Shown here piece by piece: positions 7,820 through 13,038 of a stretch of 64,000 nt of DNA (within the stretch, counting starts at the first letter, position 1; the number at the start of each line of letters is the position of its first letter). Location: positions 1,860,001 to 1,924,000 of the forward strand of contig JAGTXX020000011.1 in assembly GCA_019044685.2 (NCBI GenBank). The letters are read 5' to 3'. Below the pieces are notes generated by a model. It was not told where the DNA came from. It saw only the letters and a program-made list of their open reading frames with translations, and did not search any database. The position numbers were made by a program, and so were the translations under genes. Origin of the DNA: Nannochloris sp. 'desiccata'. Its lineage: Eukaryota; Chlorophyta; Trebouxiophyceae; Chlorellales; Chlorellaceae.

Positions 7820-8537
7820 ATCTGTCAACGGGGCAGAGAGATAGTCGATAATATGAGAATAAGTAGTGGGTCAGTGAGATTCTTTAAAATTACTGTTTAA
7901 TAATATTCGAATCCCGTGCCAGCGGAGTGCATCCGCTCTCAGCTGGAACCCACGCAGAGCTTAGTGGTGTCGAAAGTCGAAATTGGTATTTTTAAAGGAT
8001 TTATTGTCGTCTCAAGAAGTGTGTGGGGATCAGCATAAATTTCTAATCTTCGAAAAATGCGAACCTTTTAAGTGGAGTTTAAAGAGCGAGAGGAGGATCC
8101 GAGCCGCTGGACCTTTGAATATTTATAATCACTTGCAGCTGAATACATCACCTTCCGACCAGTCTAGAAGAGTGTCTTCTCGCTCTGCATAATTTTCTTG
8201 TGTTTTGTAATTTTTTGCAAGGTAGGTGGAAGTAGAAGACAGCGCGTTTACGGTTATTTATAATAGGTGGCTTTACTCGAAGTTACTACAACATTGTTCA
8301 CAAGTTATGCATTTTTCGTCGTCCAGGCAAAATATAGCTCTACGGAATCTAAATAATATTAGAAAATCGAGGATGATTAGTGACGACAGCCGATTTCGGA
8401 AGTTCTGAAAGATGAACCTGGTCTTCTAGGGGCAATTCGTTCAATTTTAGGAGAACGTCCAAAAACAGCTTCGAAGGATTCAATGCACTCCTGAAGCTCC
8501 TACAAACTTGACGGATCTGGCTCACTCTCTGCATATA
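7820..8537. other. Start of the accessory island, no confident gene
   Basis: No recognised gene. Just upstream of 8538, an open stretch from about 8452 follows a possible acceptor (TTTTAG) in the same frame as the nuclease-like gene, so an extra 5' exon may exist. I could not find its donor. Confidence 0.4.
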
Positions 8538-9482
8538 ATGGCCAGGCGACGTGACGACAAGTTGCTAGCTGGTATGTTCAAGCAAATGGCAGAGTCTATC
8601 GATAAGACAGCCCAGCAGGTCGATAAGACAACAGAAAATCTGAACAAGGAATGCAGAGAGCGAAAAGAGTTAAATAATTGGCAAAAAGCCATGGTCGACG
8701 ACATGGAAGATGCAGTGACAGGTGCTATAAAGGATAAACTGAATGATGCCGTCACGTATGATGTCTTGCGTAAAATGCCAACCGTCAAGAAGAAAGGCGA
8801 TATATATGTCGAGTGGCAGCATATTTTTCCACTCCCTCGTAGCAAATTTTCCACTCCCGCCTTCGGGGCTACATATTTTCTATGTAGGGTATTAGGGTAT
8901 ATTTTGTAGTGTATTAGGGCATATTTTGTATGTAGGGTGTGTAGGTATGTAGGGTATTAGGGTATGTAGGGTATTTCATAATTTGGCTTCCGGGAGTGGA
9001 AAAAAAAAAAAAAAGGTCTAGGAGGGAGTGGAAATGTAGGGTATGTCGAGTGGGATGGTATTGTTTTTGGAAATTTGGGGGGAAAAAATGTCCTTGTATT
9101 GGTAGAAGGGAAAAACAATATGAGATTGTGTCTACTGGATGAAGAAGAACGTGATAACGTGATAAAGAAAGCAGACGAAAAAGAGAAGAGAAAATTAGAG
9201 AAAAACTACATCCCTGGTAAACTAGAGCGCTTTATAGATGCCTTTGAAAATCTGGAGGAGCGGTACAATACTTCTGACAGTAGAGCGGCAAAGCGTGAGG
9301 CTGAGGATTGCTTAGGTTTAATCCAACGCTTGAAATCACAAGGAATAACCAAGGAGAACTTCATGGTTGCAGTCGCTGGTAATTTTATTCCAACAGAAGT
9401 TGCAGAAAAAATAAAACAGCTTGGGTATTGGAGAATCACCAGGAAAGATGGGGAGTACGAAGTATTCCTCCCGTCCCAATAA
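8538..9482 (+). CDS. Coiled-coil PD-(D/E)XK nuclease-like gene, interrupted by a mobile element
   Basis: The gene lies in two blocks, 8538-8816 and 9054-9482, separated by a 225 bp inverted-repeat element plus a 12 bp target copy (237 bp, 79 codons). Without the insert the frame is continuous (235 residues). Residues 1-75 are a charged heptad-rich coiled coil. The next part resembles PD-(D/E)XK nuclease-like proteins: Asp94 in EWDG, then a hydrophobic strand VLVLVEGK with Glu111 and Lys113 at E-x-K spacing. Charged helices follow, then a C-terminal block with VAVAGNFIP and a hydrophobic final strand, as in DUF3782-like relatives. The insertion falls between Trp93 and Asp94, at the predicted active site. 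If the insert stays in the mRNA, translation stops within it at 8907-8909. Nuclease assignment is inference from motif spacing. The upstream start is uncertain. Confidence 0.55.
8805..8816. repeat. Target-site duplication, left copy
   Basis: TATGTCGAGTGG, identical to 9042-9053. It directly precedes the inverted-repeat element and lies in the coding frame of the nuclease-like gene. Confidence 0.85.
8817..9041. mobile_element. MITE or introner-like element, 225 bp, nested inverted repeats
   Basis: The insert is bounded by a 12 bp direct repeat. It carries two perfect 13 bp inverted-repeat pairs: 8826-8838 (TTTCCACTCCCTC) with 9022-9034, and 8847-8859 (TTTTCCACTCCCG) with 8991-9003. Both share the core CCACTCCC. 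The centre (about 8884-8983) is a degenerate array of GTAGGGTAT/TTAGGG-like units, and a run of A lies at 9000-9014. No protein is encoded, so it is non-autonomous. A 12 bp duplication is longer than that of most named DNA transposon superfamilies, so I cannot assign one. GT at 8808 in the left duplication and AG at 9049-9050 in the right one would give a 243-nt intron that keeps frame. That resembles introners described in Micromonas and Aureococcus, but splicing here is untested. Confidence 0.8.
9042..9053. repeat. Target-site duplication, right copy
   Basis: Second copy of TATGTCGAGTGG; the nuclease-like reading frame resumes at 9054 with Asp94. Confidence 0.85.
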
Positions 9483-10151: not shown

Positions 10152-11020
10152 GCTTCTACTATCGTTCAATTAAAAGAAAATTTCTCGACTGACGCAAACT
10201 AAAATGTATGAAAAAATTATCATAAAATCACATCCACACGTCATAAAAATATTCGCGAAGACAAATACACTGTTATTACTATTAGAAAATCTCTGAAGGA
10301 ATTCTATGATTCAAGCCATAATTATAGAAAATAAATACCCAAATTAAATTTGTGTTAAATTTTGCTCAACACGCTAATTGTTGAATTGCTAGCTTCGACT
10401 CCAAAAAATCAGATTCTCCCGGAAAAAAATCCTTTCTCAACCTGCACCTCTGCTGCCGAATCCCTCTTTTTTTGTTGGGTTAAGCCTGTTGGAAGCTGGA
10501 GAAATGGACACTTGCCAATTCTAAACAGCTGGAGGGAACAATTGTTGGAAATTGGTAAGTTGAAAAGGGGTATTTAATAAACCTCTTGAAGCGAAGTAAC
10601 TTAGCCTGAACACGACATAGAATGAGTCATATGATTATTTGGATTAATTCAAGGTCACACCCAGAAGATATGGTGCTAGATTTTAGTAGTTTTCGTGAAT
10701 GGGTGGGATTTGGCATCCTGTTGGCAAGAGCCTGTTCTATGCTATTCGCAGCAGTTGAATAATTATCGGCTCTTGAATTTGTGTATCAGACTTATTTCGC
10801 TGGGCTTTACCCCACCTTATCCTTACCTGCTACCCTGGGTTTCTGGCATCCTCATGGTTGTGTCGTTGATAAAAAAAAAGCTAACGCCTCTTTTTCTATA
10901 ATTTTCTAATGCAGGCTGACAGGTTGGCAGGCGGCGTCACAGGAGGAACAGGTGACGGGTCCTGGAGGACACCAACACAAATTTTGACTTTTTACCTGTA
11001 TTAAACAGAACACAGAAATC
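10152..11020. other. Gene-poor spacer closing the accessory island
   Basis: About 870 bp, AT-rich. Open stretches at 10362-10577 and 10695-10901 have no start context, motif or splice support and are not called. It presumably includes the promoter of the gene at 11021. Confidence 0.45.
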
Positions 11021-12147: not shown

Positions 12148-13038
12148 CTAAGAAGCACGTTTCATAAATTTACCTTCTATTGTATCTACAACCACTGCAT
12201 CCCCAGCTACCACAAATGGCGGCACGGATATTGTCGCTCCTGTCTCTAGGACAGCAGGCTTGTACTGCGGTGCTTGAGCTTCTCCCTTCAAATGTGGCGA
12301 TGCTTCGGCAACTTTGAGCTGTACAATCTGCGGTACTGCTGCACTCACTGAAAGGAAAAGAAAAGCAATAATTATTCAAGGAGAGCGTTATTATGATATA
12401 TAAAATTACAAATACCACGTACCTGGACTTCCGTCGTGGAAAGAGAGAATCACAGAGCCGCCTTCTGCTAGGAAAGAAAGAGCAGTTTTATCTAAAAGGT
12501 CCTTGCCGACCGCTACTTGCTCGAAAGAATTCGGGTCCATGCAATGGAGGACATTGTCTTCTTGATATAGAAATTGATATTTTTTTTCATCCAGTCTTAC
12601 AACATCCACCATATCGCTTGGCCGTAGCCTTAATGGGTGTTTTGATTTGTTCAAGATGTCCCGTAATTCGAGTTGGACATTGCCCAGTTGCCGGCCGGTG
12701 CCTTGAGCGTGAGCTTGTTTTAAGACTTGCATTAATCGGCCATCTATGTCTAAGATATTCCCAATGCGGATCTGAAGAGTTATAGACGGTAATGAGGATA
12801 AGGCAAAGCAATAATCGAATGGGCAAGTAGTAAAGTAGTAAAGAGTGAGGACGGGAGGGGCGGTGGGATAAGGTCGAAATTTAAAACGCACATCATTGGC
12901 TTGTTTCTTTGTATGCACACCCATCGCTTGAAGCATCTGAAACATGGAGTGTTTAGCATCGAATAACGAAGGTTTTAATAGATAGTCTTCAGGCTTGCAA
13001 CGCAAAGCTGCAAATGCGATCCGTCTAGCATGTTGCAT
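12148..13038 (-). CDS. Organellar translation elongation factor P (EF-P)
   Basis: Three exons on the minus strand: 13038-12892, 12771-12423 and 12347-12148 (231 residues). Splice sites GAT|GTGCGT...CTTCAG|ATC and CCAG|GTACGT...TTTCAG|TG keep the frame. Residues 1-50 are basic and hydrophobic, like a mitochondrial (less likely plastid) presequence. The KOW-like N-domain follows (NDIRIGNILDIDGR), then the loop that in bacterial EF-P carries the modified Lys/Arg (here GTGRQLGN). The OB domain comes next, and the C-terminal OB domain is well conserved (VQLKVAEASP, LETGATISVPPFV, GDAVVVDTIEGKF). EF-P relieves ribosome stalling at proline runs. The first intron is 120 nt and open in frame, so its retention would simply add 40 residues. 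Divergent neighbour 283 bp away is another translation-related gene. Confidence 0.88.

Follow-up and report, generated by a model that had tools for sequence, protein, structure and literature searches.

The described systems closest to the insert considered here are certain MITEs, the Kyakuja-Dileera-Zisupton (KDZ) elements and the introners. MITEs with 8-bp target duplications, such as Mar of Drosophila (PMC3517528), are short, non-coding and multicopy, carry exact 8-bp duplications and have a longer relative that shares their ends; the abstract of that paper admits 'subterminal or terminal' repeats into the definition of a MITE, and its available text gives 8-bp duplications and terminal inverted repeats of 5-27 bp for hAT elements, with nnnTAnnn as the Buster form of the duplication. 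Among KDZ elements, the available text of PMC12730594 describes 8-bp duplications for Zisupton, a length also usual for hAT, and for Kyakuja CA..TG ends with 7-bp duplications and no terminal inverted repeats. Introners, according to the available text of PMC9860276, are short and repeated, some of them with 8-bp duplications as described for Aureococcus, and show an excess within genes in 161 of 175 genomes; the main text of that paper makes no mention of Nannochloris, Chlorella or Trebouxiophyceae.

The present insert was found in Nannochloris sp. 'desiccata', a small marine green alga whose genome comprises 21,550,525 bases in 18 contigs (21.6 Mb, 45.0% GC and 8.12% repeats in the available text of PMC12636532), within a stretch of 64,000 nucleotides, C11:1860001-1924000, that was analysed as a whole and is called the window. 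With a probability of roughly 0.92, window positions 8816-9044 hold one member of a MITE-like, non-autonomous family of DNA transposons, young and low in copy number. The family resembles Mar in being short, non-coding and multicopy, with exact 8-bp duplications and a longer same-ended relative, but its inverted repeats lie 10 bp inside the ends, its duplications lack the Buster form and its copy number is very low. Among KDZ elements, Zisupton shares with it the 8-bp duplications and Kyakuja the absence of terminal inverted repeats, Kyakuja differing in its 7-bp duplications and CA..TG ends. Introners are alike in being short and repeated, some with 8-bp duplications, whereas this family shows no reading-frame enrichment, poor splice signals and 12 independent insertions only.

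It is a new family of a known kind, the non-autonomous DNA transposon. A search of papers, as distinct from a transposon library such as Repbase, found no published description of it, and a literature search returned no paper pairing Nannochloris with miniature inverted-repeat elements. The nearest paper on MITEs with internal arrays concerns, in its available text, a Drosophila foldback element, and the available texts of PMC2872659 (coral MITEs) and PMC11892635 have no bearing on the family.

The insert and its target site

Alignment of the family's copies places the limits of the insert at GCAGCA...TAGGGTAT, a length of 229 bp, and the layout of the copies gives a target duplication of 8 bp, GTCGAGTG, 8808-8815 being identical to 9045-9052. 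The original prediction had described a 225-bp insert with a 12-bp duplication. The insert is real and the 12-bp identity TATGTCGAGTGG does stand at 8805-8816 and again at 9042-9053, but the duplication in the copies compared is 8 bp long, and the 12-bp duplication was rejected. It appears to be 12 bp because the target reads TAT ahead of the 8 bp and G behind them, like the ...TAT end and the G start of the element; on the sequences compared, these extra 3+1 bp are chance identity between element ends and target. The argument that a 12-bp duplication excludes the common DNA transposon families falls with the 12 bp on which it was built. The insert and one duplication together measure 237 nt, or 79 codons, and both flanks share one frame, which is regained on removal just as had been proposed. 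The features of the locus are as follows.

8508-8807, + strand: interrupted gene, left half, in frame as far as the target site (open frame, P0004 alignment, single genome match)
8808-8815, + strand: left target duplication GTCGAGTG (copy layout, direct read)
8816-9044, + strand: MITE-like non-autonomous element, 229 bp, GCAGCATATT...GTAGGGTAT (genome search, copy layout)
8826-8836, + strand: subterminal repeat TTTCCACTCCC, 5' outer, 10 bp inside the end (repeat search, motif count)
8848-8858, + strand: subterminal repeat TTTCCACTCCC, 5' inner (repeat search, motif count)
8881-8975, + strand: central GTAGGGTAT-type array, approximate limits (repeat search, copy comparison)
8992-9002, - strand: subterminal repeat TTTCCACTCCC, 3' inner, inverted (repeat search, motif count)
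9000-9014, + strand: A15 tract (direct read, copy comparison)
9024-9034, - strand: subterminal repeat TTTCCACTCCC, 3' outer, inverted, 10 bp inside the end (repeat search, motif count)
9045-9052, + strand: right target duplication GTCGAGTG (copy layout, direct read)
9053-9482, + strand: right half of the interrupted gene (open frame, P0004 alignment, single genome match)

Within the element, the two perfect 13-bp inverted-repeat pairs with the common core CCACTCCC that had been reported are both present (8824-8836 with 8992-9004 and 8847-8859 with 8991-9003, each 100% complementary), as is the central array, which is of the GTAGGGTAT type and differs in length among copies. The longest inverted pair is an outer one of 17 nt, 8826-8842 with 9018-9034, at 94% complementarity. 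The short element carries four TTTCCACTCCC repeats, two at each end and inverted; all four exact occurrences in the window lie inside the insert, and at one mismatch or fewer the window holds 8 against 1.02 expected, a count reached by none of 100 shuffles. The inverted repeats are set back 10 bp from the element ends, and the terminal 10 bp, GCAGCATATT at one end and ATACCCTACA at the other, form no inverted repeat between them. Since the inverted repeats are subterminal, the element is a MITE only in the wider sense of PMC3517528, and the lack of inversion in the extreme 10 bp, unlike a textbook MITE, speaks against the MITE-like reading.

The family of short copies and its class

A genome search with window positions 8800-9060 gave 20 matches at E <= 0.001, the best 14 of which are short copies, one of them split by a nested element and one internally deleted; lengths range from 152 to 264 bp among the 13 measured. 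L002, L004 and L007 have near-identical long flanks and are therefore one insertion, which brings the 14 short copies to 12 independent ones, and the family is completed by one long copy of 3,346 bp and one rearranged long copy. Copies start GCAGCATATTTTTCCACTCCC, with T replacing the first G in L008, and complete 3' ends read GGGAGTGGAAATGTAGGGTAT. Exact TTTCCACTCCC occurs 80 times genome-wide against 16 for the reversed control, in a census of exact matches that misses copies with mutated motifs; 64 of the 80 fall in 16 element loci (the 14 short copies, the long copy and the rearranged copy on C6), the other 16 occurring singly.

The insertion represented by L002, L004 and L007 (C15:1895, 9822 and 1254186) lies in about 3 kb of near-identical sequence beside a TATAC-type simple repeat, two of the three places being near the C15 end. 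By eye, a repeat starting GTGGTTTTCACACCGGG borders L010 on the right and recurs in the rearranged C6 locus L016, and window positions 10345-10385, AAATTTGTGTTAAATTTTGCTCAACACG, are similar to a repeat that lies beside the rearranged long copy in L016.

Exact 8-bp duplications were found at the long copy and at eight of the 12 independent short insertions, the latter being:

window: GTCGAGTG
L002 group: TTGAATGT
L005: GTCACGGG
L006: GCCTCAAC
L009: CTGTGACA
L011: ATCTTTCC
L013/L017, interrupted by the nested element: TGAGTGAG
L014: TTTCATTC

At L003 the duplication, GTGTTTTT, is displaced by nine extra bases on the left, with 5/8 at the boundary as read by eye, and comparison of the flanks of the 12 independent short insertions gave no duplication at L008, L010 or L012; these four sites count against the MITE-like reading. 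The check suggested with the original prediction, a genome search for inverted-repeat pairs with 12-bp duplications, leads to a multicopy family with fixed ends and duplications of 8 bp. Eleven short copies show 0 to 2 differences each from the reference L002 over a 3' block of 30 bp and bases 1-110, the latter reaching into the constant beginning of the array, the interrupted L013 and the internally deleted L014 being left out; to judge from this near-identity of the compared blocks, the family is very young.

The 14 short copies, non-coding and near-identical with fixed ends, their 8-bp duplications (eight of 12 exact, one displaced, three without) and the position of one copy in a coding frame agree with the non-autonomous multicopy element originally proposed. 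A transposase acting in trans would bind the paired subterminal TTTCCACTCCC repeats, and the element would move by cut-and-paste, duplicating 8 bp of target at insertion. Transposase domains of hAT (nine matches), KDZ (seven) and MULE (three) occur in the genome; the MULE duplication range takes in about 8 bp, and any of the three could make duplications near that length. A search for P-element-like domains gave no match anywhere, controls included, so that nothing follows from it.

That the copies are an ordinary hAT MITE is unlikely, though not far-fetched. Duplications of 8 bp, short length and hAT domains in the genome all agree with it, T occupies position 2 in six of nine duplications, and two of the nine hAT loci, L057 and L065, have one one-mismatch motif site each. 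None of the nine duplications, however, fits either nTnnnnAn, the form of the Ac type, or nnnTAnnn of Buster, and the element lacks a terminal inverted repeat of the 5-27 bp that go with hAT. Nor does any exact motif lie within the 1.5-kb flanks of the nine hAT matches, a distance beyond which ends would escape, and the genome-wide census of exact TTTCCACTCCC contains no further motif cluster. Among 16 KDZ and hAT loci with 1.5-kb flanks, exact TTTCCACTCCC occurs only at L050, within the MITE that hosts a KDZ element. The one resident KDZ element examined has ends CAGGTAAGTCACCC, quite unlike those of this family. As a separate observation, L024 (C6:1582771-1589706), an element of 6,936 bp, has inverted ends CAGGTAAGTCACCC, contains a KDZ transposase domain and lies within the A tract of a MITE copy; the A counts of 15 and 7 at its sides fit an 8-bp duplication, without proving it.

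A long copy with two convergent genes

The MITE-like family has a long relative with the same ends as the short copies, L015 (C11:426502-429847, 3,346 bp), which is flanked by the exact 8-bp duplication CCAACCAC. At its 5' end 65 bp agree with the full short copies at 97-98%, and at its 3' end about 73 bp do so at 94-99%. Internal loss in a long copy, together with reduplication of the TGTAGGGTAT end sequence, is the probable origin of the short form. L015 carries two convergent open frames of 378 and 231 aa, the former terminating in RGRPRK, which by eye looks like an AT-hook. Neither has a Pfam match, and no transposase domain was recognised in the predicted proteins, which weighs against the MITE-like reading; KDZ transposase domains occur in this genome, yet Pfam found none in the two frames of the long copy. 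Against 5.8 billion proteins, the 378-aa protein, for which the 7,996 candidates with the most words in common were scored, retrieved a single record, identical at 100%, and the 231-aa protein its own record, NADE_005538 of Nannochloris sp. 'desiccata', and one relative at 50% identity. A PDB sequence search with the 378-aa protein brought little result, and its single-sequence fold reached a mean pLDDT of 35.6, one model that was too poor for a fold search.

These genes raise the prospect that L015 belongs, as the autonomous member, to a DNA transposon group not yet described and marked by 8-bp duplications and by paired subterminal TTTCCACTCCC in place of terminal inverted repeats, in which the convergent orphan genes would be mobility proteins and one of them would mobilise the short-copy MITEs. 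The shared ends, the exact duplication CCAACCAC, the AT-hook-like terminus, the 50% identical relative of the second gene elsewhere and a decayed second locus on C15 (L048/L049), where remnants of the two genes keep their convergent arrangement, are in keeping with such a role. It is nevertheless a distinctly improbable one: no Pfam match was obtained, the model of the first protein is poor, only one complete long copy was found, and the two genes may simply be carried along while a resident transposase of the hAT, KDZ or MULE kind moves the elements.

Several structural observations concern the same loci. L048 and L049 (C15:243000-252500 and C15:1009500-1019000) form an inverted segmental duplication of about 9.3 kb at 99% identity, and a 1.19-kb near-palindrome is present in L048 and its counterpart. 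The rearranged long copy on C6 contains an inverted duplication of the 5' part, and L025 (C6:1975321-1976834) is a 1.5-kb near-palindrome, 94% identical to its own reverse complement, made up of the 5' part of the long element and a flanking repeat.

The interrupted gene and the question of splicing

Both halves of the interrupted gene, queried as 8508-8815 and 9045-9482, have a single match each in the genome. P0004, a 159-aa homologue from another source, runs uninterrupted across the insertion site and matches both: the left frame is identical to its residues 1-45 at 36 of 45 positions (80%; the last three columns fall in the insert), and the right frame, read from 9042, to residues 39-154 at 81 of 116 (70%). 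Residues 39-45 are common to both alignments, and 39-42, YVEW, are encoded by TATGTCGAGTGG on either side. As P0004 is continuous through the site, a relative possesses the coding sequence in a form free of the insert, and the gene predates the insertion; P0004 may be a paralogue, the empty site being seen at the protein level.

The gene had been called nuclease-like, a label for which no confirmation was obtained. Pfam matches all lie below curated cut-offs (left frame: DarP 0.0054, GCN5L1 0.012, Syntaxin 0.025; P0004: DUF7880 0.056; P0002: XRCC4_CC 0.13), PDB sequences searched with P0004 gave one chance-level match (E 0.62), and a three-sequence fold of the protein had a mean pLDDT of 49.9, too poor for a fold search. 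The left frame meets an in-frame stop within the insert at 8907-8909, where insertion into the coding sequence would cut the product short, and the gene is probably inactivated.

The other reading, put forward in the original prediction, is that the element acts as an introner, spliced out by way of GT and AG in the target duplications so that the gene stays functional. The GT at 8808 and the AG at 9049-9050 both exist and would yield a 243-nt intron, the 237 nt are in frame, Aureococcus introners with 8-bp duplications are on record (PMC9860276, in its available text), and the right half is still open at 70% identity to P0004. An intact right half is, however, just as expected from a recent insertion. 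The proposed donor, GTCGAG, lacks the consensus form GTRAG. The proposed acceptor has 7/20 pyrimidines against 16/20 in two introns of L015, one deduced from a public protein record and one by eye; among 4,372 AG sites in the window the median is 10/20, and 23% score no higher than the proposed acceptor. On the reverse strand AG sites with 16-17/20 pyrimidines occur, but there are only three GT, all near the far end. In the EF-P gene (12406-13038), the likely acceptor of an intron ends TTCAG. Two same-species public proteins, Ndes2437B_g06182 and Ndes2526A_g06284, begin at MRLCLL, downstream of the insert, in assemblies that may or may not carry it.

The distribution of the insertions bears on the introner reading as well. 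When flanks of 1.0-1.7 kb were joined into empty sites and the longest open run was taken, runs of at least 200 codons appeared at two of the 12 independent sites, the window (264) and the L002 group (225, 184 and 207); the latter was rejected as coding, its left side being TATAC-type simple repeat. One credible frame in 12 compares with 62.4% of 4,000 random window positions with an open run of at least 200 codons (binomial P(X<=1) = 1.7e-4; with the simple-repeat site included, P(X<=2) = 1.6e-3), a background taken from the gene-dense 64-kb window alone, in which open runs are a proxy for genes, sites in introns or short exons going unrecognised. Enrichment inside genes, as reported for introners elsewhere, was thus not found. 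With sites mostly outside long frames and poor splice signals, an intron was rejected on sequence grounds; the introner reading is not supported by these comparisons and is very improbable. Splicing at the insert, if ever seen, would make it an introner starting point, and present evidence favours plain inactivation.

On the MITE-like reading, a compact algal genome harbours a transposon family of very recent origin, one copy of which offers a clean example of insertion into a coding frame, and an apparently anomalous target duplication has been corrected to 8 bp. The long copy L015, with its orphan genes, is a concrete place in which to seek an unrecognised transposase.
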